A stretch of DNA of 64,000 nucleotides from Chryseobacterium lactis. Lineage in GTDB: Bacteria; Bacteroidota; Bacteroidia; Flavobacteriales; Weeksellaceae. The number at the start of each line of letters is the position of its first letter. Position 1 is the stretch's first letter. The notes beneath the pieces were generated by a model that made no database searches, was not told the DNA's origin, and was given only the letters and a program-made list of their open reading frames with translations. Below, piece after piece: positions 2,953 through 57,496 of the stretch. The DNA lies in contig NZ_CP033924.1 in assembly GCF_003815875.1 (NCBI RefSeq), forward strand, positions 2,294,001 to 2,358,000, given 5' to 3'. The position numbers and the translations under genes were made by a program.

Positions 2953-4149
2953 TTAGTTTTGATATGATGAATAGTTGAAAGGATATAAAATACTTATAAA
3001 AGTGCCAGATAATTTTTTATTACTTGTACTTCTAAAATTGTTATTATTCCAATCTTCAATAATTAAATCAGTAAGATTATTTATGTCTACTTGTGTATAC
3101 TCATCTTTAATCATATTTCTATAAGCAATATATTTATCTGTACTAATTTTCAAAAATCCCTTTTGGTCAATTGTTTTTAAGATTCTATCTAATCCCAAAC
3201 CTTTTTTAGACTTTAGATTTGTTGTAGAGGAGGTTTGATTTTTAACAAGGCATTTTTTTAATATAGTAATATCGTCTAAGTCATCTTTATCTTGAAATTT
3301 ATCTATAAAACCAATTCCAGAATCAAACACACTAATTTCTAAATAATCTATTTTCTTATAATCTGTAACGCACTTTGTTTGGATTGTTTCCTCTTTTAGA
3401 AAAACCTCAATTGGGGTGTCTTTAAAGTCTTCAATTATATTTTCATACATATTACTATGAAATCTTAGGTATAGTCCTCGTATACTTGGATTAATTGGAA
3501 CATTATCTCTATTTGTTTTACCCCATTCAAAAGTATTTTTAATTAGCTCATATATTATAGCACCAATATCTAATAAGATACTTTCAAATTCTGTAAGATT
3601 ATTAAAATTATATGTTAGTATATTTTTTTTAAGAATTTTCTTAATAACATCTATTATTTGTTCTTCATTTTCATTAAAACCATTAGAATTTTCAAAAAGC
3701 TTTACTAATCCTTTACTATTTGAAAAATGATCAATATTAATCAATAATGATTTGTTTGATTTTAGCCTTTGAAATGAATTCATTTTTATAAAAAAATCGT
3801 TTTGCAAACTTCTTAATTCATCTTTTATAGTATCTCCTTTGGAATTTGTAAACTTTGTAGAATTCCAGAATAATGATACTATAGGGTATATAAACTCTTG
3901 TTCATAAACTTTATCTAAGTCTTCGGCACTATCAATTGAGAGTTTAATTTCTTTTACAATATATTTATTATTCAGTGTTATTAAGAATTGCAACAATTCA
4001 GCCAGCACACCAAATCTATATTTTTCTATCTCTTTTGGAAGTACTATTCTAAATTCACCACTGTAATTTTTCTCATAGAGATAATCATCATATAAAGCTT
4101 TTATTTTTTTTGAAGTTAAACTTCTTTGGATTTTTATATCAATCATCAA
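2953..4149 (-). CDS. GHKL (HATPase)-domain protein of the putative defence operon
   Basis: 398 residues with a Bergerat ATP-binding fold in the C-terminal half: N box ELIKNTFEWG at 201-210, G1 box DSGIG at 276-280 and G2 box KKGLGLDRI at about 315-323. No histidine phospho-acceptor domain, membrane segment or MutL/gyrase transducer is seen, so it is not an ordinary sensor kinase. It is the first gene of the operon; only 4 bp separate it from the PRTase-like gene. Stand-alone GHKL proteins occur in several antiphage operons, where ATP binding switches an effector; that role here is inferred from the neighbours. Confidence 0.6.
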   Translation of the reverse strand: MMIDIKIQRSLTSKKIKALYDDYLYEKNYSGEFRIVLPKEIEKYRFGVLAELLQFLITLNNKYIVKEIKLSIDSAEDLDKVYEQEFIYPIVSLFWNSTKFTNSKGDTIKDELRSLQNDFFIKMNSFQRLKSNKSLLINIDHFSNSKGLVKLFENSNGFNENEEQIIDVIKKILKKNILTYNFNNLTEFESILLDIGAIIYELIKNTFEWGKTNRDNVPINPSIRGLYLRFHSNMYENIIEDFKDTPIEVFLKEETIQTKCVTDYKKIDYLEISVFDSGIGFIDKFQDKDDLDDITILKKCLVKNQTSSTTNLKSKKGLGLDRILKTIDQKGFLKISTDKYIAYRNMIKDEYTQVDINNLTDLIIEDWNNNNFRSTSNKKLSGTFISILYPFNYSSYQN

Positions 4150-4399
4150 TATTTATTATAGGAATAATTCAAAAATAAGGAATATTAAATAATTTTTTTA
4201 AAATTTTTTGAAGTCCTGCAAAAACCCACTCCTCCTCAAGACTAATGCCCCCCACGTATTTTTGGAGAAAACTCCCCCATACCTTTTTTATTAGGAAATA
4301 AAATTTCAGGCAGACTATAAATTGTTTTCTACAACTATAGTTTAATCTGAACACATCTCTTTAGAAAATGTAAAAATCTAACTCAAAAATTTAAAAACA

Positions 4400-11606: not shown

Positions 11607-12731
11607 ATGGTAGATTTAATTAAATTTTATCTTGAAAATATCTCTTTAAGTGATTATATCTTAACGACAAAATTTATAAAAATAAGAGAGGAAGGTGGAT
11701 TTGAAATTTTTAAAGCTGATCCGGATATGATTTCTTTTTTGTCCCAAAAGGTAAAAGCTGGAAACTGTAATTTACCAAAACATGGAATTGTTGTTCAGCA
11801 AGAAAATATTATAAAAAAGCTGTCATATCAGAATAAGTTTATCAGTTTTAAAAGAAGATTGAACGCAAAATCAGGAAGATTGTCGGTTTGCCAAAATGTA
11901 AGAAAAGACTTTATTCGTATCAAAAATTTAAACCCTTTTACTGACCTAAATTATCTGAATTTTGTTGAAATAATCGAAATGTATGCACGTGAGTTCGGGA
12001 TTGAAAAAGAAAAATTCTGGAAGGCTAAAATTACTCAAGTGGAATTGGGAGTAAATATCAGGTTTAATATGAACATAGCTTCTATTATGAGCAGTGTTTC
12101 AAGAATGAAAGGAATGGAAAATACACTAAGAATAGGAAATACTGTTAACTTTAAAAATCAAAAATATGAAGTTGCGATTTATGATAAATTAGGTAGAGAA
12201 GCTCAGCAGGGTGAAGTTTTTAAAGGAACAAATAAGGTAAGAAGAAGACATTTGGTGAAAAAAATCGCTAAGAATAATAGTTTTGTTAGGATTGAGTTGA
12301 GAGTAAAGACTGTCAGTCAATTCAATCGAGCTTCAATAAAAAGCAAAATAAAAACCTTGGAATCTGTCAGAAACAATTTTCATTCGTTAGGTGAAGAACT
12401 CTACAAGCTTTTTGTTAATATATCTTTTGTTGATGAAATTTCGCCAGATATTGATCAGTACCTTGTGAAGTCACAATTAAATAGTAAAAGTGTAAAAGCG
12501 TTTAACGATTATTTGATATTTCTAGGATTGAAATATTTTGGAATCAAAAAGTTTGTTGATTTCGCTTTTCCTATTCTAAATACAAACAATAGAAATAGCT
12601 ATATTGAAAAATTGGAGAATTTGTTTAATAAATACAAAGGAGATAATGATTTTGTGAAAAAAGAGTTTCAGAGGAAATTGTCAGCAAGGATTAATAAACT
12701 GACCGTACCCGCTTTTTCAAGTAGTAACTAG
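11607..12731 (+). CDS. Replication initiation protein, filamentous-phage gene II/X-like
   Basis: 374 residues. The pattern resembles phage X / gene II replication initiators: a central beta region WKAKITQVELGVNIRF (about residue 147), then KYEVAIYDKLGRE (about 190) and a basic FVRIELRVKTV (about 229). These proteins nick one strand and drive rolling-circle replication. Pairing with an excisionase-like HTH fits an element that excises and replicates. No Zot/pI morphogenesis ATPase or coat gene is present, so this is not a complete inovirus. The catalytic tyrosine cannot be assigned with certainty. Confidence 0.55.
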   Translation: MVDLIKFYLENISLSDYILTTKFIKIREEGGFEIFKADPDMISFLSQKVKAGNCNLPKHGIVVQQENIIKKLSYQNKFISFKRRLNAKSGRLSVCQNVRKDFIRIKNLNPFTDLNYLNFVEIIEMYAREFGIEKEKFWKAKITQVELGVNIRFNMNIASIMSSVSRMKGMENTLRIGNTVNFKNQKYEVAIYDKLGREAQQGEVFKGTNKVRRRHLVKKIAKNNSFVRIELRVKTVSQFNRASIKSKIKTLESVRNNFHSLGEELYKLFVNISFVDEISPDIDQYLVKSQLNSKSVKAFNDYLIFLGLKYFGIKKFVDFAFPILNTNNRNSYIEKLENLFNKYKGDNDFVKKEFQRKLSARINKLTVPAFSSSN

Positions 12732-36472: not shown

Positions 36473-36544
36473 GGTTTCTTTAGCTTATTTGGTAAAGCGC
36501 CGGTCTGTGGAACCGGAGAACAGGGTTCGATCCCCGAAGATACC
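36473..36544 (+). tRNA. tRNA-His (GTG)
   Basis: Cloverleaf with anticodon loop CTGTGGA on a CCGGT/ACCGG stem. G-1 and C73, the histidine identity pair, are encoded. The acceptor stem has a T:T mismatch at position 3-70, and the T stem has one A:C mismatch. CCA is not encoded. Confidence 0.75.
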
Positions 36545-36549
36545 CAAAG

Positions 36550-36626
36550 AATCTCATAGCTCAAATGGTTAGAGCACCGGTCTTTTAAACCGGAGGTTGA
36601 AAGTTCAAATCTTTCTGGGATTACCA
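36550..36626 (+). tRNA. tRNA-Lys (TTT)
   Basis: Anticodon loop CTTTTAA on CCGGT/ACCGG. Acceptor AATCTCA/TGGGATT pairs throughout with one wobble. CCA is encoded. The T loop reads TTCAAAT. Confidence 0.85.
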
Positions 36627-36628
36627 AT

Positions 36629-36702
36629 GGTTCCGTAGCTCAATTGGATAGAGCATGGGTTTTCTAAACCCAGGGTTAGAGGTTCGAGCCCTCTCGGAAT
36701 CA
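36629..36702 (+). tRNA. tRNA-Arg (TCT)
   Basis: Anticodon loop TTTCTAA on TGGGT/ACCCA. Acceptor GGTTCCG/CGGAATC pairs with one wobble; discriminator A. CCA is not encoded. Confidence 0.85.
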
Positions 36703-36709
36703 CAAAAAA

Positions 36710-36781
36710 GGTCTATTGAGGTAATGGCTAACCTGCCCGACTGTCTCTTGGGCACTGCGAGTTCGATTCTCGCATAGACCG
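36710..36781 (+). tRNA. tRNA-Asp-like (GTC)
   Basis: Perfect acceptor stem GGTCTAT/ATAGACC. The anticodon loop CTGTCTC on CCCGA/TTGGG gives GTC, but position 37 is T where a purine is normal. The stem could extend to an 11-base loop (TGCCC/GGGCA). T arm CGAGTTCGATTCTCG. Unusual but folds. Confidence 0.65.
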
Positions 36782-36784
36782 CAA

Positions 36785-36847
36785 AGGTTCATGGAAATTT
36801 CAGCTCCGACTGTCTCTCGGAAAAGAAGCTTGAAGTGAATCTGCAAA
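36785..36847 (+). ncRNA. Mini-tRNA-like RNA with reduced D and T arms (Asp-type anticodon arm)
   Basis: An acceptor-like helix pairs GGTTCAT with GTGAATC (two wobbles). Between them lie a tiny GAA/TTC hairpin, an intact anticodon arm CCGACTGTCTCTCGG matching the preceding Asp-like tRNA, and a tiny AAG/CTT hairpin. Total about 63 nt, without normal D or T arms. It could be a decayed tRNA or a functional mimic. Confidence 0.45.
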
Positions 36848-36848
36848 G

Positions 36849-36920
36849 CTGGAAAGATAACGGTGGTTGTTTACCCGTCTTGGACGCGGGAGGTCGCAAG
36901 TTCGAATCTTGCTTTCCAGA
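36849..36920 (+). tRNA. tRNA-Pro (TGG)
   Basis: Perfect acceptor CTGGAAA/TTTCCAG. Anticodon loop CTTGGAC on CCCGT/GCGGG. The D arm (ATAACGGTGGTTGTTTA) is atypical. Discriminator A. Confidence 0.75.
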
Positions 36921-36924
36921 CAAT

Positions 36925-37010
36925 AAAATGAATAAGTCAATGGTGAATTTGCTTACCAGTGAATTTGAAAATTGACCGCAAAGCGGATTGACCATTTATT
37001 ATTCATCAGT
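36925..37010 (+). repeat. Hairpin-forming spacer between tRNAs
   Basis: ATGAATAA...ATGGT pairs with ACCAT...ATTCAT over about 85 bp. Similar long inverted repeats fill most spacers of the array (37942-38034, 38275-38355, 38445-38520, 38757-38840). Confidence 0.5.
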
Positions 37011-37015
37011 TAAAT

Positions 37016-37089
37016 GATTTCGTAGCTCAAATGGTTAGAGTATCGGTCTGATATACCGAAGGTTGAAGGTTCGAGTCCTTCCGGAATTA
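37016..37089 (+). tRNA. tRNA-Ile (GAT)
   Basis: Anticodon loop CTGATAT on TCGGT/ACCGA. Acceptor GATTTCG/CGGAATT pairs with G:T wobbles at 1-72 and 5-68; G1:U72 is unusual for Ile. Confidence 0.8.
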
Positions 37090-37094
37090 CAAAG

Positions 37095-37168
37095 GGTTTC
37101 GTAGCTCAAGTGGCTAGAGTATCGGTTTCATAAGCCGGAGGTTGAAGGTTCGAGTCCTTCCGAAACTA
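37095..37168 (+). tRNA. tRNA-Met (CAT), elongator-like or Ile2
   Basis: Anticodon loop TTCATAA on TCGGT/GCCGG. Acceptor GGTTTCG/CGAAACT has a G1:U72 wobble. It has no initiator features (no three G:C pairs in the anticodon stem). Confidence 0.8.
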
Positions 37169-37173
37169 CAAAG

Positions 37174-37245
37174 GATTTTGTAGCTCAATGGTAGAGCACC
37201 GGTCTGTTAAACCGGAAGTTGAAAGTTCGAGTCTTTCCAAAATCG
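37174..37245 (+). tRNA. tRNA-Asn (GTT)
   Basis: Perfect acceptor GATTTTG/CAAAATC, anticodon loop CTGTTAA on CCGGT/ACCGG, discriminator G. Confidence 0.88.
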
Positions 37246-37271
37246 CAGCTAACTAAATGTTAATTGTTTCA

Positions 37272-37351
37272 GGAGAAAAAGTAAAAGTTTGTCAAGAGCA
37301 GAAGATCTTTACGCCAAACACAAAAAATGAGAACAAACTTTTTCTTTCTCC
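37272..37351 (+). ncRNA. Array hairpin RNA, copy 1 (GCAGAAG family)
   Basis: GGAGAAA...AGTTTGTC pairs with GAACAAACT...TTTCTCC. The loop begins AAGAGCAGAAGATCTT, shared with copies at 37523 and 38039. The shared loop and conserved closing stem argue for an RNA family rather than a passive spacer. Confidence 0.5.
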
Positions 37352-37414
37352 AAAGTATAATAAGCAAAAGGGAAATTAATCATTACCCATTACTTATTAT
37401 TTATATCTAGATCT

Positions 37415-37496
37415 GATGGTTCGCCGAAGTGGAAGAGTCGGGGCGGTCTGCAAAACCGTTGCATAAGCTGAGTGGGTTTGGATCCCATAGCCATCT
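37415..37496 (+). tRNA. tRNA-Cys (GCA) with enlarged variable region
   Basis: Acceptor GATGGTT/AGCCATC with one wobble, anticodon loop CTGCAAA on GCGGT/ACCGT, discriminator T as expected for Cys. The variable region of about 12 nt is longer than normal for Cys. Confidence 0.75.
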
Positions 37497-37522
37497 CAAA
37501 TAACTAAAATGAGATTAGTTCA

Positions 37523-37590
37523 GGAGAAAAATAAAAGTTTGTCGAGCGCAGAAGTTCTTGTATCAAAAAAAGACAAACTTTTTTAACTCC
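37523..37590 (+). ncRNA. Array hairpin RNA, copy 2 (GCAGAAG family)
   Basis: AAAGTTTGTC pairs with GACAAACTTT, and GGAG with CTCC at the ends. The loop starts GAGCGCAGAAGTTCTTG. Same design as copies 1 and 3. Confidence 0.5.
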
Positions 37591-37650
37591 ACCGGGAAAT
37601 AAGTGACATGGGAAATTATTTATTACTCATTGCTAATTACTCATAAAAAT

Positions 37651-37790
37651 GGAAGTACGCCGAAGTTGGAGAGTCGGGGGCAGACTGACATGAGGAACGA
37701 ATTGAACGATTCCTTTAAAAGAATGAAAAATACAGAGTTAAAATCTGTTGCTTCATTGCTGAGTAGGTTCGAATCCTGCTACTTCTACCA
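37651..37790 (+). tRNA. Oversized tRNA-Leu-like (TAA) with an inserted hairpin
   Basis: Acceptor GGAAGTA/TACTTCT plus encoded CCA, and a good T arm (GTAGG TTCGAAT CCTGC). The best anticodon arm is ACAGA-GTTAAAA-TCTGT, giving TAA. Between the D arm and this arm lie about 45 extra nt including a hairpin AGGAA..ATTCCT. The 140-nt length is far beyond a normal tRNA. The insert is not in the anticodon loop, so it is not a typical group I intron. Confidence 0.45.
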
Positions 37791-37791
37791 A

Positions 37792-37864
37792 ACCGCTGAT
37801 AATGTAACGGCAGCATGCAGGAAATGTACTCTTGTTGTTTAGGTTCGATTCCTAGTCGGTGGTT
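37792..37864 (+). tRNA. tRNA-like (Thr-TGT reading) with non-canonical anticodon loop
   Basis: Acceptor ACCGCTG/CGGTGGT pairs with two wobbles and the T arm is good (TTAGG TTCGATT CCTAG). The only 5-bp anticodon stem is CAGGA/TCTTG with loop AATGTAC, putting A at the invariant U33 position. Decoding ability is doubtful. Confidence 0.45.
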
Positions 37865-37869
37865 ATATT

Positions 37870-37941
37870 GCTCTATTCGTCTAACGGTGAGGACGCCTGC
37901 CTTTCGAGCAGAAAACAAGGGTTCGATTCCCTTATAGAGTA
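37870..37941 (+). tRNA. tRNA-Glu (TTC)
   Basis: Acceptor GCTCTAT/ATAGAGT with a wobble at 1-72; anticodon loop CTTTCGA on CTGC/GCAG; D arm as in Glu/Gln tRNAs. Confidence 0.8.
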
Positions 37942-38038
37942 CAAAATGTGAATCAACTGGTCAATCCTGAATTGATAATAATACCATGAAAGTTCAAATG
38001 GAGAAATATTGGCCAGTTATCATTCACACAAAATAAGA

Positions 38039-38106
38039 AAAGAGAAAAGGCTGTCGAGCGCAGAAGATCTTTAATCAAATATAAACAAAGACGGCCTTAC
38101 CTTTTT
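38039..38106 (+). ncRNA. Array hairpin RNA, copy 3 (GCAGAAG family)
   Basis: AAAAGGCTGTC pairs with GACGGCCTT. The loop starts GAGCGCAGAAGATCTTTA. Compensatory changes in the stem (GTTTGTC/GACAAAC in the other copies, GGCTGTC/GACGGCC here) support a real fold. Confidence 0.5.
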
Positions 38107-38188
38107 ATGAGCAATGAATAATGAGCAATGAGTAATCAGTACAGGTAGGTAATTACTCATCACCGATTGCTCATAACTTATAAAACTC

Positions 38189-38264
38189 GCGGGAATGGTG
38201 GAATGGTAGACACACTTGATTTAGGATCAAGCAGCTGGGGGTTCGAATCCCTCTTCCCGTACCA
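38189..38264 (+). tRNA. tRNA-Leu (TAG), copy 1
   Basis: Anticodon loop TTTAGGA on CTTGA/TCAAG; acceptor GCGGGAA/TTCCCGT; encoded ACCA. The variable region is shorter than a typical Leu long arm. Confidence 0.8.
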
Positions 38265-38359
38265 AAGATATGAATGATAAGTAATGAGCAATGAGTAATC
38301 ATTACAATCGTGTGGTTGTCAAATTACTCATTACCGATTACTCATTACTTATAAAACTC

Positions 38360-38435
38360 GCGGGAATGGTGGAATGGTAGACACACTTGATTTAGGATCA
38401 AGCAGCTGGGGGTTCGAATCCCTCTTCCCGTTCCA
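38360..38435 (+). tRNA. tRNA-Leu (TAG), copy 2 with altered discriminator
   Basis: Sequence-identical to copy 1 except that the discriminator A73 is T (TCCA end). A73 is a major leucine identity base, so charging may be impaired. The flanking spacer is also duplicated. Confidence 0.75.
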
Positions 38436-38525
38436 AAAACATGAAAGATAAGTAATAAGCAATGAGTAATCATTACAATCGGGTAGTTATCAAAATTACT
38501 TATTACTCATTACTTATAAAATAAG

Positions 38526-38599
38526 GGAAGAGTGGTGTACAAGGTGTTGCACGCTAGTCTGAAAAACTAGAGGTACAGGTTCAATTCCTGTCTGTTCCA
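38526..38599 (+). tRNA. tRNA-Phe (GAA)
   Basis: Anticodon arm CTAGT-CTGAAAA-ACTAG is perfect. Acceptor GGAAGAG/CTGTTCC has one G:G mismatch at 5-68. T arm good. The D arm (GTGTACAAGGTGTTGCAC) is unusual. Confidence 0.7.
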
Positions 38600-38679
38600 C
38601 AAAACATGAATGATAAGTAATGAGCAATGAATAATCATTACAGGTAGGTAGTTACTTATTACCGATTACTCATGGCATT

Positions 38680-38750
38680 ACTCTGATATTGTAATGGTAG
38701 CATCTCAGTCTCCAAAACTGATGGTACTGGTTCGAGTCCGGTTCGGAGTG
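38680..38750 (+). tRNA. tRNA-Trp (CCA)
   Basis: Anticodon loop CTCCAAA on TCAGT/ACTGA; acceptor ACTCTGA/TCGGAGT; discriminator G, the Trp identity base. Last tRNA of the array. Confidence 0.8.
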
Positions 38751-38882
38751 CAAAAATGATGAATAGTCAATTCATTTTGCTGGCAATTTTAAAATTCATT
38801 GATAAGCAAAATTTCTATTGACCATTCACAAATTAATTATCAATAATCATTTATTAATTATCAATTAAAGTATGTAGAAAAA

Positions 38883-39805: not shown

Positions 39806-40377
39806 TGGACATTTTTAGATTAATTCAGGATATAAAAACACATTTGAAACTCAATTTTGATGAGGTTGACAGATGGTTTGAAAAAGATAAAAATATATTG
39901 AATGATCAGCCTTTAAACAAAGGATGGACGGTTCAGCAGATTTTGGAACACATTTATCTTACCAATTTTTATTTGCTGATTCTTATTGAAAAAGGAACAA
40001 AAAAAGCAATGCGAAATTATAAAGATCTTGATTTACAATCGGAAATAAAGAATTACAGTTTCAATAAAGAACACTTTGGAAGAGTAGGTGAATACGGAGC
40101 TTTTGAGTGGATCAGACCGGAGCATATGGAGCCCAAGGGAGAATTGAATCTGCCTGAAATAAGACGCTTAATTTCTCAGCAGTATCATCAATGTTTAGAT
40201 TATCTGGACCTGATGAAAAATGGGGAAGGGCTCCTTTGTAAAACTACAATGACCGTAGATGGGCTGGGAAAAATCAATGTCTATGAATACATTTATTTTC
40301 TCTCACTTCATGCCCGGAGACACATTACTCAGATGAAGAATAATGAATTAGAAACAATTAAAAAACTAAAACAATGA
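39805..40377 (+). CDS. DinB-like four-helix protein
   Basis: 190 residues in a DinB/YfiT-type bundle: metal-binding His in LEHIYLTNFYLL near residue 50 and in LSLHARRHITQM near 172. Members often act as thiol-dependent transferases or hydrolases of unknown substrate. Embedded between the cREC and RNA ligase genes with overlapping ends, so co-translated with them. Confidence 0.75.
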   Translation: MDIFRLIQDIKTHLKLNFDEVDRWFEKDKNILNDQPLNKGWTVQQILEHIYLTNFYLLILIEKGTKKAMRNYKDLDLQSEIKNYSFNKEHFGRVGEYGAFEWIRPEHMEPKGELNLPEIRRLISQQYHQCLDYLDLMKNGEGLLCKTTMTVDGLGKINVYEYIYFLSLHARRHITQMKNNELETIKKLKQ

Positions 40378-41387
40378 TTTTCAAAACATATAACTCTATA
40401 GAAAATGCTTACCAAACCCGCGTGATCGATCAGATCAGATTGCAGGGTTTTGGGGATGAGATTTTCATCGTGCAGGAAAAAGTTCACGGTGCTAATTTTT
40501 CTTTCTTTACCGACGGAAAGGAAATTAAAATCGCGAAAAGAACTGCCTTCATTGAAAAGGATGAAAAATTTTTCAATGCCCATCAAATATTGGAACGTTA
40601 CGGAAAAAATGTAATGAAAGCGTTTCAGAAAGTAAAAGTGATCCACCCGAATGTTGAAACAATAGTTATCTATGGTGAATTGTTCGGTGGAGGTTACAAC
40701 CATAAGGAGGTAGAACCCGTAAAAGATGCTGTACGAGTGCAAAAAGGTATTGAATATGCACCTTACAACGAATTTTATGCATTCGATATCAAGTTGAATG
40801 GAACTACTTATCTGGATACGGAACTAGTCAATCAGGTTTTTGAAGAAACCGGCTTTTTCTATGCTAAAATTTTGTTTCAGGGAACTTTGGAAGAAGCTTT
40901 GAGGTTTCCCAATGTTTTTAATTCTAAAATTCCTGCTTGGCTGGGATTGCCTGAATTGAACAATATGTGTGAAGGAACGATTATCAAAACTTTGAAAACC
41001 AGATATTTTGGTAATGGTGCAAGAATCATTCTGAAGAATAAAAATGAAAAATGGATTGAAAAATCCAAAATGGTTAAAAAACAGGCGAAAGTGGTTCATA
41101 AAACGGTTCATTTTAGCGAAATCGCCGAGCATATTTGGGAAGAAATCCAGAAATATGTAACAGTAAACCGTTTGAATAATGTTATGAGCAAAATTGGCGA
41201 ATTCGAGCCCAAAATGATAGGGAAAGTAATCGGTCTTTTTGCGAAGGATATCTTGGAAGATTTTGAAAAAGATTTTCCTGTAGCTTTTACAACCATTGAA
41301 AAAGAAGAACAAAAAAGGATCAACAAAAAATTGAATTCTTTAGTCATTGATTTTGTTAAAGAAGAATTAATGACGATTAAAGTCTAA
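40374..41387 (+). CDS. RNA ligase, Rnl2 family
   Basis: 337 residues. Nucleotidyltransferase motifs in order: I EKVHGAN (adenylated Lys at about 36), III YGELFGG, IIIa FYAFDIK, IV CEGTIIK (about 199-205), V ILKNKNEKW. A helical C-terminal domain of about 110 residues follows. The enzyme would seal 3'-OH/5'-P RNA nicks, such as cleaved tRNA, after end-healing. It overlaps the DinB-like gene by 4 bp. The linked phosphoesterase and cREC genes supply the healing steps in the proposed pathway. Confidence 0.9.
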   Translation: MIFKTYNSIENAYQTRVIDQIRLQGFGDEIFIVQEKVHGANFSFFTDGKEIKIAKRTAFIEKDEKFFNAHQILERYGKNVMKAFQKVKVIHPNVETIVIYGELFGGGYNHKEVEPVKDAVRVQKGIEYAPYNEFYAFDIKLNGTTYLDTELVNQVFEETGFFYAKILFQGTLEEALRFPNVFNSKIPAWLGLPELNNMCEGTIIKTLKTRYFGNGARIILKNKNEKWIEKSKMVKKQAKVVHKTVHFSEIAEHIWEEIQKYVTVNRLNNVMSKIGEFEPKMIGKVIGLFAKDILEDFEKDFPVAFTTIEKEEQKRINKKLNSLVIDFVKEELMTIKV

Positions 41388-53244: not shown

Positions 53245-53281
53245 TACGCAAAAAGATTGCGTAATAGAGTGATTACTTTGC
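53245..53281 (+). promoter_or_regulatory. Special promoter, copy 2 (rsr)
   Basis: TACGCAAAAAGATTGCGTA (53245-53263) is followed by 13 bp and TTTGC. In this copy the two halves TACGCAA/TTGCGTA are an exact inverted repeat. Its place relative to TTTG is the same as at 25031, 56357 and 56576. Confidence 0.7.
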
Positions 53282-53337
53282 ATCAGAAATCAGAGAGAAA
53301 GACAAACTCTCCTATGTTTAACAAAAAAACAGTAACC

Positions 53338-54855
53338 ATGAAATTTAATTTTTTAAGAAAAGAAAATAAAGTTGTATTGAACTACGAAGGTGCAAAAGCA
53401 TATACAATGACACCTGCAGAAGAACTCTATAGTGCTGTTGTTACAACAGGACTGTCAGATGCAACCTATGAAAAGGGAAATGACAGATTGGCGAGAATCC
53501 AGTCTCTGATCGAAAAAAATGATCCGGAATTTGTAGCTAAGCTGGCAGTATACGCAAGGAAAGATATGTACCTGCGTTCTATTCCATTGGTTTTGACGAC
53601 TGAATTGGCAAAGCAGGTTTCCGGTACTGATCTGGTAAGCCGAACGGTAGATGGAGTTGTTCAGAGAGCAGATGAAATCACAGAACTTTTGGCTTACTAT
53701 CAGTTGGCAAATGGCAGAACAGAAACAAAGAAACTGAACAGGCTGTCTAAGCAGATCCAAAAAGGACTGGTAAAATCATTCAACAAGTTTGATGAATACC
53801 AGTTTGCAAAATACAACAGAAAAGCTGAAGTGACATTCAAAGATGCTTTGTTTCTTGTTCACCCGAAAGCGAAAGATGAAAACCAGCAAATGATCTTCAA
53901 CAAAATCGTATCCGATATGTTGGAAACGCCTTACACATGGGAAGTAGAGCTTTCAATGCTGGGTCAGACGAAATTTGCAAGTGATGCCGAAAGAAAATCA
54001 GCATTCAAAAGCAAATGGGAAGAACTGATCTTTAGCAATAAAATGGGTTATATGGCTACTTTGCGAAACCTGAGGAACATTCTGGAAGCAGATGTATCAT
54101 CTGATGCAATGAGTAAAGTTTGCCGATATTTGTCCGATGAAAAGGCGGTGTCAAACTCAAAACAGCTCCCATTTCGTTTCCTGGCGGCTTACAGAGAATT
54201 GAAAATCATTGATTCTCCTTACGTATCCTCCGTTTTGGAAGCTTTGGAAGATGCTGTTATGGTGAGTGCCAGAAATATCAAAGGTTTCGGCTTTGAAACT
54301 TCGGTGGTCATTGCCGCAGACGTTTCCGGTTCTATGCAGAAATCGGTTTCTAAGAAAAGCAAAGTATTGCTGTATGATATCGGTTTGCTGATGTCTATGA
54401 TTTTGCAGTCACAGTGTAAAAACGTGGTGACAGGTGTATTCGGTGACCGTTGGCTGCGTGTTGCGATGCCTAAAAGTGGTATTCTGAGAAACGTAGACGC
54501 TTTCTACAAACGTGAAGGTGAAGTGGGCTACTCAACAAATGGCTACCTGGTATTGGAAGACCTGATCAAAAGACAGGAAAAAGTAGACAAAGTAATGTTG
54601 TTCACCGATACTCAGATGTGGAATAGTACAGGCAGCAGAAACTCTTTTGAAGATTTGTGGAACCGATACAAAGCCATCGCTCCCAATGCCAAATTATATA
54701 TTTTTGACCTTGCGGGTTATGGCCGACAGCCCCTCGATGTCAGAAAAAATGATGTATACCTTATTGCAGGTTGGTCAGACAAAATTTTCGATGTATTGAA
54801 TGCGTTGGAAGACCACAAATCTGCAGTACAAATGATACAAAAAGTAGTGCTGTAA
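53338..54855 (+). CDS. rsr: Ro60 orthologue (TROVE-domain protein, Rsr)
   Basis: About 505 residues from the ATG at 53338 (MKFNFLRKENKVVLNYEG); the ATG at 53314 is possible, while the most upstream start lies inside the promoter. The TROVE domain is HEAT-like and ring-forming (YSAVVTTGLSDATYEK ... VQRADEITELLAYYQ). The C-terminal vWA domain has an intact MIDAS start (IAADVSGSMQKSV) and later LFTDTQMWN. Ro proteins bind misfolded RNA ends in the ring and Y RNA on its outer face. Candidate Y RNAs follow downstream, and two share its promoter motif. Confidence 0.9.
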   Translation: MKFNFLRKENKVVLNYEGAKAYTMTPAEELYSAVVTTGLSDATYEKGNDRLARIQSLIEKNDPEFVAKLAVYARKDMYLRSIPLVLTTELAKQVSGTDLVSRTVDGVVQRADEITELLAYYQLANGRTETKKLNRLSKQIQKGLVKSFNKFDEYQFAKYNRKAEVTFKDALFLVHPKAKDENQQMIFNKIVSDMLETPYTWEVELSMLGQTKFASDAERKSAFKSKWEELIFSNKMGYMATLRNLRNILEADVSSDAMSKVCRYLSDEKAVSNSKQLPFRFLAAYRELKIIDSPYVSSVLEALEDAVMVSARNIKGFGFETSVVIAADVSGSMQKSVSKKSKVLLYDIGLLMSMILQSQCKNVVTGVFGDRWLRVAMPKSGILRNVDAFYKREGEVGYSTNGYLVLEDLIKRQEKVDKVMLFTDTQMWNSTGSRNSFEDLWNRYKAIAPNAKLYIFDLAGYGRQPLDVRKNDVYLIAGWSDKIFDVLNALEDHKSAVQMIQKVVL

Positions 54856-54892: not shown

Positions 54893-54990
54893 TTAGGAGC
54901 TTATTCCCGCTTTCCACTATATCTTTTTCGCAGCGCTTTTTTACAAAGCCATTTCAGAAAAAGGATGCCGTTGCAATCGGGGCTAGAGTA
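54893..54990. repeat. Second copy of a dispersed repeat (see 19560)
   Basis: AGGAGCTTATTCCCGCTTTCCACTATA...GGATGCCGTTGCAATCGGGGCTAG matches in order with 19558-19660 (GGAGCTTTATCCTGCTATCC ... CGTTGC.ATCAGGGCTA). The central segment holds a hairpin-prone AAAAAGG/TTTTTC stretch. Confidence 0.5.
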
Positions 54991-55656: not shown

Positions 55657-55722
55657 CACCTACATGTTCAGGATCTGAACTTTTGGTTCTTTTGCTTCAA
55701 GGCAAAACGAACAAAAAAATAG

Positions 55723-55800
55723 CCAATGTCGTACGTAAGAGTTCCATCATCAAACTTTTAATTTGAACAGAATCAAAAACTCTTACCCATTGTTACTTGG
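55723..55800 (+). ncRNA. Candidate Y RNA A (short type)
   Basis: Closing CCAA/TTGG, then TGTCGT, then a perfect 9-bp stem GTAAGAGTT (55735-55743) with AACTCTTAC (55778-55786). The apical part carries the CATC variant of the family core. Sits between two ORFs and is followed by T-rich DNA. Confidence 0.6.
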
Positions 55801-55819
55801 TTTAATTTAAAATAGTATT

Positions 55820-56347
55820 ATGGGTAATTTAATGTTCAGAATTGAACAGGACCTTAAAGAAGGCAGAAAGAAAAAAGCATGTGATAGGCTAAAAAATATG
55901 ATCAATCAGTTTCCAAATGATATTTCTCTGAGAAAAAAGCTAGGACAGATTTATTTTGAAGCAGGATTTATTGACGAAGCTGGAAAATTCTGGATTCTCT
56001 GCGCTCCTGAAAATAATGAAATGAAAAATGCGGTGGAGATTTATAGAAAATCATTAAGCAATTCAGGAAGTGCAATTTTAAAAGATATTGTTTTCAGAGG
56101 AAACAAGGGGCTTCTTAATGAATATGCAATGAAAGTAATGGCTGAACTTGAACAAGATAGTTTCAAAGTCACAAAACATATTCCTGTTTTTAAAGCAAAA
56201 ACAAGAGAAATAGGTAAGCATAAGGAGAGTCATACAGATCTTTTAAGTAAGATAGGAATCTTCCTCTTCATCGGATTAGTTATCTTAATTCCGGTTTTAG
56301 GAATTTTTAAGTTACTTGAACTGATATCTTCATTATTTTTCCAATAA
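55820..56347 (+). CDS. DUF6584-like TPR protein with C-terminal membrane helix
   Basis: 175 residues. The N-terminal half reads like DUF6584 (DLKEGRKKKACDRLKNMINQFPNDISLRKKLGQIYFEAGFIDEAGKFWIL), a TPR-like hairpin pair. The C-terminus is a hydrophobic helix (about 146-170). It lies between Y RNA candidates A and B1, so it may share their transcript. Role unknown. Confidence 0.6.
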   Translation: MGNLMFRIEQDLKEGRKKKACDRLKNMINQFPNDISLRKKLGQIYFEAGFIDEAGKFWILCAPENNEMKNAVEIYRKSLSNSGSAILKDIVFRGNKGLLNEYAMKVMAELEQDSFKVTKHIPVFKAKTREIGKHKESHTDLLSKIGIFLFIGLVILIPVLGIFKLLELISSLFFQ

Positions 56348-56356
56348 AAATCAAAC

Positions 56357-56393
56357 TGCGTAAAAAGAGTGCGTATTTACTACATAATTTTGC
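56357..56393 (+). promoter_or_regulatory. Special promoter, copy 3 (Y RNAs B1/B2)
   Basis: TGCGTAAAAAGAGTGCGTA (56357-56375), 13 bp, then TTTGC, with TAATTTTG as the -7 box. Candidate Y RNA B1 begins about 13 bp downstream, so its 5' end is near the start site. Confidence 0.7.
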
Positions 56394-56405
56394 AGTGTTC
56401 ATCAT

Positions 56406-56472
56406 ACTGGTGCCGTTAGAAAAGACATTCATCGAATCCAAATTGACAAAGTCTTTCCACAGATTGCCCGGT
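56406..56472 (+). ncRNA. Candidate Y RNA B1 (short type)
   Basis: Closing ACTGG/CCGGT, family core TGCCGT, stem AAAGAC/GTCTTT, apical CATCG. About 67 nt, no tRNA-like module. Confidence 0.6.
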
Positions 56473-56478
56473 ACTTAT

Positions 56479-56561
56479 AACCAATGCCGTAAATAAGAGT
56501 TTCATCGTTAACTTCCAATTGAATTATCATTTACTCTTACAATCAATTGCTTGGTTTTTTT
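56479..56561 (+). ncRNA. Candidate Y RNA B2 (short type)
   Basis: Closing AACCAA/TTGGTT running into a T7 tract, core TGCCGT, stem TAAGAGT/ACTCTTA, apical CATCG. The closing stem plus T-run would also terminate transcription. Confidence 0.65.
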
Positions 56562-56575
56562 AATAAAAAAATAAC

Positions 56576-56612
56576 TGCGTAAAAAGAATGCGTAGTAGAA
56601 ATATAAATTTGC
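56576..56612 (+). promoter_or_regulatory. Special promoter, copy 4 (Y RNA array)
   Basis: TGCGTAAAAAGAATGCGTA (56576-56594), 13 bp, then TTTGC, with TAAATTTG as the -7 box. The first array unit starts about 35 bp downstream. Confidence 0.7.
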
Positions 56613-56646
56613 AACAAGAAACTAATAACTATGAATTAATAATTAA

Positions 56647-56774
56647 AAGCAAGTGTCGTAAAATAGAGTTACTTCGTTTTCAGGGCGGCAATACAGGTTC
56701 GATTCCTGTCCTTTGGGTAGTGAAAATGGTAACACTCCGCCAGTAAGTCTCTGTTTGATTCATTTACCTTGCTT
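56647..56774 (+). ncRNA. Candidate Y RNA 1 with permuted tRNA-like module
   Basis: Closing AAGCAAG/CTTGCTT, core TGTCGT, apical ACTTCG. Inside, a T arm ACAGG-TTCGATT-CCTGT comes before a D-arm-like AGTGAAAATGGTAACAC, the reverse of normal tRNA order. Confidence 0.65.
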
Positions 56775-56780
56775 ACACAT

Positions 56781-56923
56781 AATCAAGTGTCGTTTTTGGA
56801 GTCATACTTCGATTCACACCATCCGGTCACAGGTTCGATTCCTGTCATTCTTGTTGTAAACGGGATGTAGCTCAGCAGGTGGAGCAGATGGAAAAGAAAG
56901 ACTCCGCCTTTTTAACCTTGATT
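56781..56923 (+). ncRNA. Candidate Y RNA 2 with permuted tRNA-like module
   Basis: Perfect closing AATCAAG/CTTGATT running into T6, core TGTCGT, stem GGAGTC/GACTCC, apical ACTTCG. T arm ACAGG-TTCGATT-CCTGT, a loop, an acceptor-like CATTC/GGGATG pairing, then a D arm GTAGCTCAGCAGGTGGAGC. Confidence 0.7.
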
Positions 56924-56927
56924 TTTT

Positions 56928-57035
56928 AAAGAGTGCCGTAGAGAAGGCTTACTTCGGTAAATCTTATGATATTGGTTCAACTCCAGAAAGGTCATGAAAA
57001 TGATCTGTAAAAGTCTTTTCACACTTCGCCTCTTT
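56928..57035 (+). ncRNA. Candidate Y RNA 3 (reduced tRNA-like module)
   Basis: Closing AAAGAG/CTCTTT with a T-run, core TGCCGT, stem AGAAGGCTT with AAGTCTTTT (wobbles), apical ACTTCG. Shortened T-like arm TTGG-TTCAACT-CCAG and a small hairpin GGTCA/TGATC. Confidence 0.6.
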
Positions 57036-57051
57036 TTAATTTAAAAAAACT

Positions 57052-57202
57052 AAACAAGTGCCGTAGAATAGTGTTACTTCGATCATCACGACGGGGACAC
57101 GGGTTCAAGTCCCGTCTCTTCCACTAAAATACAGATTTGCTGTGGGAAGAGTAGCTCAGTTGGTTAGAGCACGACATTACACGTTCAGTCATTGCCTTGT
57201 TT
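57052..57202 (+). ncRNA. Candidate Y RNA 4 with clearest permuted tRNA module
   Basis: Closing AAACAAG/CTTGTTT, core TGCCGT, stem GTGT/ACAC, apical ACTTCG. T arm ACGGG-TTCAAGT-CCCGT leads into TCTTCC, which pairs with GGGAAGA (57144-57150). A near-consensus D arm GTAGCTCAGTTGGTTAGAGC follows. This is a tRNA whose 3' half precedes its 5' half, with the Y stem in place of the anticodon arm. Confidence 0.72.
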
Positions 57203-57335
57203 TTACCATAACAGGAAGCTGGAAGCGGGAAATTGGAAACCATCTTTGTATATAATTTTCTACCCGGTCAGAGAGATTACTTTCAGACCTTTACAAGATC
57301 CAATCTTTCCGTTTTCGGTTTCTTTTTTCCAACAT

Positions 57336-57465
57336 AGAAGTGTCGTCAGGAAAAATTTCATCGGTACGCAATTGGGGAGGAATAGCGAAGTCGGTCATTC
57401 CGGCAAGGCTATCCGGTTCGACTCCGGCAAACCTGGACCCCGTTTTTTCCTTATCATAACCTTTT
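57336..57465 (+). ncRNA. Candidate Y RNA 5 with tRNA-like module in normal order
   Basis: Core TGTCGT, apical CATCG, Y stem AGGAAAAA (57348-57355) with TTTTTTCCT near 57443. Inside, GGGG/CCCC closes a module with an ATAGC/GCTAT arm followed by a T arm CCGG-TTCGACT-CCGG. Confidence 0.55.
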
Positions 57466-57471
57466 AATAAA

Positions 57472-57496
57472 AAAGGCCGGTACGTTATTTACCGGC
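57472..57496. terminator. Bidirectional terminator after the Y RNA array
   Basis: GCCGGTA pairs with TACCGGC, with A- and T-rich flanks. It separates the plus-strand RNA array from the convergent HTH genes. Confidence 0.7.

Follow-up and report, generated by a model that had tools for sequence, protein, structure and literature searches.

Introduction

In Salmonella, the Y RNAs YrlA and YrlB are encoded in the rsr-yrlBA-rtcBA operon, together with rsr, the gene of the bacterial Ro60 ortholog, and with genes of RNA repair (PMC8394870, PMC7790460). Bacterial Y RNAs are given a length of 90–150 nucleotides (nt) in PMC8394870, and in Deinococcus radiodurans it is the lower stem of the Y RNA that Rsr binds (PMC4726728). 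What bacterial Ro60 gains from its Y RNAs has been studied in very few species. Here we analyze a stretch of 64,000 nt from Chryseobacterium lactis (assembly GCF_003815875.1, contig NZ_CP033924.1, positions 2,294,001 to 2,358,000 of the forward strand; hereafter the window, with position 1 as its first letter), in which an rsr gene is followed on the same strand by eight units that are predicted to be structured RNAs. It is probable, in our view, that these are eight Y RNAs bound by the neighboring Rsr protein through one shared core, the handle, which carries many different heads, and that the set serves the surveillance and repair of the RNAs of translation.

Results and Discussion

Eight Units Downstream of rsr

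A first-pass annotation of this DNA, made from the letters of the sequence, had proposed eight intervals that share TGYCGT and, further on, CNTCG, each closed by a terminal helix of its own. All eight are present, no more than 2 bases off the starts proposed (Table 1), with TGYCGT cores that begin at 55727, 56411, 56485, 56654, 56788, 56934, 57059, and 57341. The individual closing helices are also seen, among them AATCAAG/CTTGATT and AAACAAG/CTTGTTT in addition to those given in Table 1. The combination of TGYCGT with CNTCG holds for seven of the units, whereas in unit 1 the second element is replaced. Five units measure 108–151 nt and three 71–82 nt; the longest class of the relatives mentioned below, class N, reaches about 217–222 nt.

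The bare TGYCGT...CNTCG motif was dropped as evidence, with 138 matches in the 5.6-Mb genome against 223 for a reversed control. Such a motif is common by chance, and the evidence therefore lies in the structure and the clustering of the units. A strict descriptor requires a closing helix of 6 base pairs (bp), the bulged T, two inner pairs, and CNTCG. It matches the window at exactly seven sites, all of them in the array, with none on the minus strand and none in each of 20 shuffles. When the CNTCG condition is lifted, all eight units are retrieved, together with four scattered sites on the plus strand of the window. The covariance model R1, which was built from the class of unit 8 (class B) and trained on loci of the same genus, detects all units except 3 and 5 (six of eight), with no further match in the window at E up to 1, and both of its matches in the C. 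lactis genome at E up to 0.001 lie at the array.

These results bear on the idea that a mobile or selfish family of DNA repeats, or tRNA genes in decay, expanded behind rsr by chance, as the tandem repetition of the cores and the tRNA-like pieces in the units might suggest. We find this hardly credible. Repeats of the repetitive extragenic palindrome or miniature inverted-repeat transposon kind have scattered copies on either strand, which the units do not, as judged with both the descriptor and R1; moreover, the strand is fixed, the order of the units is conserved, and the closing helices covary, as described below.

Table 1. Positions in the window of the units, of rsr, and of the accompanying elements and genes. 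R1 is the covariance model described in the text; A1–A3 are alignments of units.
Feature	Positions	Strand	Description
rsr, bacterial Ro60 ortholog	53314..54855	+	TROVE and Ro60-type vWA domains; start codon inferred
Unit 1	55721..55802	+	hairpin type of ~82 nt, class E-like by eye; TGTCGT, with CATCATC replacing CNTCG; closing helix AGCCAA/TTGGTT; R1 28.5 bits, E 7.7e-4
Unit 2	56404..56474	+	hairpin of ~71 nt, class J, without tRNA-like head; R1 E 0.013
Unit 3	56479..56556	+	hairpin of ~78 nt, class L; closing helix AACCAA/TTGGTT, then T run
Unit 4	56647..56774	+	class D, core stem and T-arm head; closing helix AAGCAAG/CTTGCTT; R1 E 7.3e-5
Unit 5	56781..56923	+	class A, permuted tRNA head (T arm, acceptor-like stem, D arm); alignment A3 and fold
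Unit 6	56928..57035	+	class H, head is a T-arm-like stem-loop; R1 E 1.6e-5
Unit 7	57052..57202	+	class C, permuted tRNA head; alignment A1; R1 E 7e-4
Unit 8	57334..57467	+	class B, GGGGAGG...CCCC head, central arm, TTCGA T-like arm; alignment A2; R1 E 1.9e-24, the unit 8 sequence being in the R1 training alignment
Promoter-like element before rsr	53245..53281	+	TACGCA N7 TGCGTA ... TTTGC
Promoter-like element before unit 2	56357..56393	+	TTTGC ends 17 nt before core
Promoter-like element before unit 4	56576..56612	+	TTTGC ends 41 nt before core
Intrinsic-terminator-like hairpin directly past unit 8	57476..57496	+ (stem listed for minus too)	7-bp stem, 5 GC pairs
DUF6584 gene between units 1 and 2	55820..56347	+	PF20225 E 1.4e-40
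Second, divergent set of 14 tRNA genes	36473..38751	+	57–73% identical to the regular same-anticodon tRNAs
T4 Rnl2-type RNA ligase	40374..41387	+	PF18043 E 1.5e-23, PF09414 E 1.2e-21

Structure and Covariation of the Handle

The handle consists of a terminal helix, the sequence of which is free, one bulged U, a G–C pair, a Y–R pair, the CGU segment of an internal loop, a second helix, and UUACUUCG or a variant of it. It was characterized on 468 units, namely those of the relatives and seven of the window. The 6 nt directly before TGYCGT pair with the downstream arm in 388 of these, G–U pairs being allowed. In the 388 helix-bearing units, the G that follows the bulged U faces C in 361 cases and T in 22, and the Y–R position is paired in 371 (202 C–G, 154 T–A, and 15 T–G; Fisher p 1e-79). 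A helix score of at least 6 is reached by 79% of the units, compared to 33% when the downstream parts are swapped between units. A basal stem built from the 5′ and 3′ ends, one of the features by which bacterial Y RNAs are recognized, is accordingly found in these units.

The first-pass annotation took changes that preserve pairing in the closing stems as support for a real RNA fold, and the present analysis bears this out: the closing helices differ from unit to unit yet stay complementary, and the covariation in classes C and B lies above the controls. Changes on both sides are seen in 14 of the 34 predicted pairs in class C, in 19 of 31 in class B, and in 12 of 31 in class A. When single cells of the alignments are counted, 36 changed on both sides in class C (alignment A1) versus 7.0 in shuffled alignments, and 140 in class B (alignment A2) versus 40.9 shuffled and at most 14 slid, the latter a large difference even though the shuffles leave relatedness in place. 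Both counts are higher than in any of the 500 shuffles or of the slid controls, which cover classes C and B. The alignments hold 29 of the 49 units of class C, 33 of the 52 of class B, and 34 of the 69 of class A, with the helix in register and hand-picked for length and spread.

Linkage and Joint Loss of the Units and rsr

The product of rsr is recognized by its domains (PF05731, E 4.8e-30; PF25045, E 8.5e-7) and, among proteins in the PDB, by its similarity to the TROVE proteins 9l5y and 9kop (E 7e-27) and to the 60-kDa Ro protein 1yvp (E 0.004). Immediately past rsr, on the minus strand, lies a Flavo-1 RNA (RF01705, 64 bits; 54899–54988).

Scanning the GTDB genomes with Rsr yielded 74 rsr loci, from Chryseobacterium to Saprospiraceae. 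The 286,883 bp downstream of rsr contain 461 copies of the motif, as compared to 12 in 812,558 bp elsewhere on the plus strand and 13 in 1,099,441 bp of the minus strand, which corresponds to a density about 120 times the background. At least two same-strand units follow rsr in 72 of the 74 loci, the other two having just 195 and 1,663 bp of downstream sequence, so that the core is not a dispersed repeat unlinked to rsr, a possibility that the earlier annotation had raised. The number of units per locus ranges from 2 to 12 with a median of 6 (72 loci); eight units beside one rsr, expected at first to be unusual because one or two Y RNAs are the general figure for bacteria with Ro, are thus not so for this clade. 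The units sort into about 20 sequence classes, and within the Chryseobacterium group the single-copy classes follow the same order in 1011 of 1020 pairwise comparisons, a count in which F/J, E/L, and G/H/P were merged, partly by position, which favors agreement, and from which six classless units, repeated classes, and the loci beyond this group were left out. Class B extends further, to Sphingobacteriaceae, Chitinophagales, and Saprospiraceae.

A covariance search of Chryseobacterium genomes, of the kind suggested in the first-pass annotation, was run with R1, and the matches track rsr across 59 genomes of the genus, with which the training species of R1 may overlap. TROVE is present in 45 of the 59, in 43 as the main type and in two as a distant paralog alone. 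All 43 main-type genomes have an R1 match, just a weak one in seven, and it lies on the same contig as rsr except in genome G001. Matches are also found in one of the two paralog-only genomes (G017) and in two of the 14 without TROVE (G038 and G045). In G038, rsr runs off the end of a contig, and 11 motif matches follow. In G045 (L161:7080-7460), the 5′ part of rsr passes directly into the end of a class B unit, as a single deletion would produce, and this genome would then represent a natural joint deletion of rsr and the array with a remnant left. G017 has kept the flanking SWIM, DUF6493, and helix-turn-helix (HTH) genes, while rsr and the array are gone and one decayed class B unit without TGYCGT is left. 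With these exceptions explained, rsr and the units were lost together. The distant TROVE protein, of about 462–464 amino acids (aa), was seen in L163 (G017:C6), G019:C1, G022:C4, and G033:C18; the G017 locus has no motif match.

It might be argued that the units, as structured RNAs, have a different binding partner, either some other protein encoded at the locus or a tRNA enzyme, rsr being a mere neighbor. The binding by Rsr is indeed a prediction, and genes for DUF6584, SWIM, and DUF6493 proteins lie nearby. However, G017 retains its SWIM, DUF6493, and HTH genes without rsr, and its sole leftover unit has lost TGYCGT. In addition, the first unit begins 21–68 nt past the rsr stop in all 14 loci outside the Chryseobacterium group, which leaves no room for another gene in between, and similar units stand just before the TROVE gene in some phages. 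We therefore consider this alternative quite improbable.

An order-wide search gave R1 matches in 8 of 119 genomes (3 of 54 genera). A sample of the phylum contains TROVE in 11 of 148 genomes, this one included, and nine of the ten others were inspected (all but G221). Strict descriptor matches lie beside rsr in five of the nine (G103, G263, G281, G206, and G202). Two more, G296 and G242, have TACTTCG units with a 5′ part of the TGYTGT type and, by eye, class B-like and permuted-tRNA heads; G237 has related units, and the single descriptor match of G258 is not unit-like.

Heads of the Units

In the window, units 1–3 have plain hairpins as heads, units 4 and 6 carry a T arm, units 5 and 7 a permuted tRNA, and unit 8 a T-like arm that sits on a GGGG/CCCC stem. 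In classes A and C, the head is a tRNA body in circular permutation, with T arm, acceptor stem, and D arm in this order and without the anticodon arm; the acceptor stem of unit 7 and its class has 7 bp (CTCTTCC/GGAAGAG). The T arm of unit 4 matches tRNA-Phe over 18 of 19 nt, and segments of unit 7 are identical to tRNAs of this genome over 18–21 nt. An intact T arm is present in 298 of the 468 units and is absent from the short classes E, F, I, J, L, and T as well as from M and N. Detection of D arms with simple regular expressions gave contradictory orders for class A and was discarded. Every species is said to have at least one Y RNA with a tRNA-like domain, as Chen reportedly found in 2014, and here classes A and C provide it. 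Taken together, the linkage to rsr, the co-occurrence with it, and two permuted tRNA-like heads of the kind known from YrlA support the candidate Y RNAs that the earlier annotation had put forward.

A head of another kind occurs in relatives. Class N is present in 13 of the 74 loci, and in all 13 members 19–33 nt match one place in the 23S rRNA of the C. lactis genome, the best match covering 33 nt at 97% (E 2.5e-12). We take this place to be H69–H70. The example in L010 spans about 11609–11830, and further ones are in L015, L024, L029, L032, L036, L038, L045–L048, L068, and L073; no class N unit was found in this window. A similarity to 23S rRNA wider than the 19–33 nt was rejected, the local alignments being not significant. 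In a windowed comparison, the 13 members sum to 634 at the collinear place, a value exceeded in one of 1020 overlapping windows (641, 1–2 nt off), but the comparison is weak, an unrelated window (start 6125) reaching 630 and single members ranking from 1st to about 98th. No credible rRNA match was obtained for the other classes: those of C, A, and K near 3960–4150 fall on tRNA genes that lie in the rRNA spacer, and all others are short (12–21 nt), with shuffled units giving 16 matches.

Promoter-like Elements and Terminator-like Hairpin

The pattern TRCGYA-N7-TGCGTA-N8-22-TTTGC has three matches in the 5.6-Mb genome, all at this locus (Table 1), compared to none in the control. Bacteroidota promoters carry a −7 box, and the bipartite motif is read as a putative promoter because it resembles this box. 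Across the 1.10 Mb of the 74 loci, the strict form matches 60 times on the forward strand and twice on the reverse; 49 of the forward matches are near rsr or in the array, and 11 lie 3.9–6.3 kb upstream of the rsr stop. Among the latter are those of locus L017, where the motif stands, by eye in both cases, before an RNase T-type gene pair and a slipin-like gene (positions 2463 and 4043), and the regulon may consequently be wider in relatives. A scan for sigma-70 promoters was uninformative (6 found, 6.8 in shuffles).

The arrangement of head-to-tail units between promoter-like motifs and a terminator-like hairpin would also be compatible with elements that act in cis within a single long transcript, such as leaders, attenuators, or processing stems, rather than with free RNAs. 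However, from the DUF6584 gene to the terminator-like hairpin there is just one reading frame of at least 60 aa, a frame of 91 aa with a TTG start (57192–57467), which overlaps units 7 and 8 and was given no weight. A cis-acting role is thus very improbable in our estimation.

A Putative RNA-Repair Island

The DNA upstream of rsr contains on the same strand, in addition to the ligase and the second tRNA set of Table 1, an RNase H-like gene, a gene with a cyclic-phosphate receiver domain, a phosphoesterase, two RNase T-type exonucleases, two DUF6493 genes, and a SWIM protein. We read the region as a putative RNA-repair island, on the strength of the predicted Rnl2 ligase, RNase T, and phosphoesterase genes and the second tRNA set; islands of this type are reportedly the subject of work by Burroughs and Aravind from 2016. 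The same strand further carries a MoxR-vWA-beta-propeller system, MoxR-vWA systems having been described in PMC7159879. The tRNA search covered 60 of the 74 loci, and in 8 of these the 7 kb upstream of rsr hold at least two tRNA genes on the same strand. A tRNA-Tyr-like gene at about 37650–37790 of the window was not called by ARAGORN and has, by eye, about 50 additional nt inserted in its anticodon loop. The private promoter-like motif, together with the ligase, the exonucleases, and the spare tRNA set, suggests that the whole island answers damage to the RNAs of translation.

With such neighbors, the Y RNAs held by Rsr could alternatively act as decoys, the heads occupying ribonucleases or factors of phages or toxins while the spare tRNAs and the ligase replace and repair the real ones. 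The heads do copy the T, D, and acceptor parts of tRNAs and, in relatives, a piece of 23S rRNA, the island does combine an RNA ligase with tRNAs 57–73% identical to the regular ones, and a role of the YrlA tRNA-like domain as a competitive inhibitor is raised in PMC7790460. However, anticodon nucleases should not cut permuted heads without an anticodon arm, although competitive binding would still be possible, and the hairpin units resemble nothing that we recognized. A decoy function is therefore unlikely in our judgment.

Proposed Mechanism

In the mechanism that we propose for the predicted Y RNAs, rsr and two groups of units would be switched on together from shared promoters, and the polycistronic RNA would be cut into single units. 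Rsr would then grip each unit by its handle, while the head would select the partner brought to the Rsr ring. This partner might be PNPase, as in RYPER (Rsr-Y RNA-PNPase), enzymes of tRNA and rRNA, or the ligase and the exonucleases of the island. The outcome would be a set of Ro particles that survey and repair the RNAs of translation, including 23S rRNA in the relatives with an rRNA-like head.

Several points weigh against this proposal. Transcripts, processing sites, and Rsr binding of the units are predictions from sequence, and the choice of a partner by each head is our inference. The helix is not universal, as 80 of the 468 units have no 6-bp helix in the expected register; 13 of these 80 belong to class N, with the closing arm beyond the 190-nt limit, and in 12 of the 13 this arm was found 205–210 nt downstream of the core. 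Of the units in the window, three out of eight have no tRNA-like head, and the strict promoter pattern is near rsr in only 38 of the 74 loci. The R1 searches over many genomes used stricter filters, and the training loci of R1 come from the same genus. Finally, the Rfam YrlA model (RF02553) scores unit 5 at 34 bits and unit 7 at 32 bits, below the gathering cutoff of 69. We rejected these subthreshold matches as support because tandem tRNA genes in the same genome score equally, at 34–35 bits.

Tentatively, and as a possibility on which we would rely less than on the proposal for this locus, Ro60 of Bacteroidota might be a programmable ring, with an ordered and co-regulated library of Y RNAs that mimics tRNA and 23S H69–H70 and in which each head steers the ring to an enzyme of its own for repair, modification, or decay after RNA damage. 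The loci form a natural series, in which one Rsr is combined with a conserved handle and up to a dozen heads in an order fixed across the genus, with some classes in other families, and each head is a clue to a partner. A Y RNA whose head resembles 23S rRNA would be a direct link between Ro60 and the quality control of ribosomes.

Comparison with Known Systems

The units have in common with YrlA and YrlB their location adjoining rsr, the stem of the 5′ and 3′ ends, a tRNA-like domain of D, T, and acceptor parts, and RNA-repair genes as neighbors. A URCUU element on the 5′ side is likewise common to YrlA (consensus AUGCUU) and to the units here (UUACUUCG). The array differs from YrlA and YrlB in the number of units, eight here and up to 12 in relatives, in the outer helix with its bulged U and GYCGU, and in the many classes of heads. 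The ligase in this window is of the Rnl2 type, unlike the Salmonella operon, RtcB and RtcA not having been searched genome-wide. The D. radiodurans RYPER complex likewise pairs Rsr with a Y RNA, and its tethering of an exonuclease served as a model for the mechanism above; in contrast to RYPER, the heads here form a set of different kinds, and a contact to PNPase is a prediction of the model.

Six of 86 phage TROVE records were looked at, and their variant core was recognized by eye. T[AG]CTTCG units lie just before the TROVE gene in Caulobacter phage CcrColossus (five; L220, 1831–2809), in the crAss-like phage csAssE-Sib (three; L217, 2510–2798), and in Xanthomonas phage Olaya (one clear; L218, 2845), the last of which has three YrlA matches of 26–50 bits, below the cutoff. 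These units differ from those described here in having a 5′ part like GUGGYGUAG or GUGGUGAUG instead of UGYCGU, in preceding rsr, and in being fewer. Two tRNA genes annotated in csAssE-Sib have their start within the TACTTCG of such units or directly at it. The strict descriptor also matched in three of nine phage, plasmid, and archaeal TROVE loci (Bambus 2, Olaya 2, CcrColossus 1), but these five matches were counted as chance, because four are inside annotated genes and none has UACUUCG.

Like transfer-messenger RNA (tmRNA) and other mimics of tRNA, the permuted heads join a T arm and an acceptor in permuted order; unlike in tmRNA, a reading frame for a tag was not recognized in them, and the weak tmRNA matches are below the cutoff. 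The titles and abstract beginnings that we surveyed name neither a Y RNA array of Bacteroidota nor an rRNA-like Y RNA; the main papers on bacterial Y RNAs lie outside this survey, and absence from print is not claimed. Y RNAs with tRNA-like heads are already known, but an ordered array of this size and a head that resembles rRNA seem to be new.

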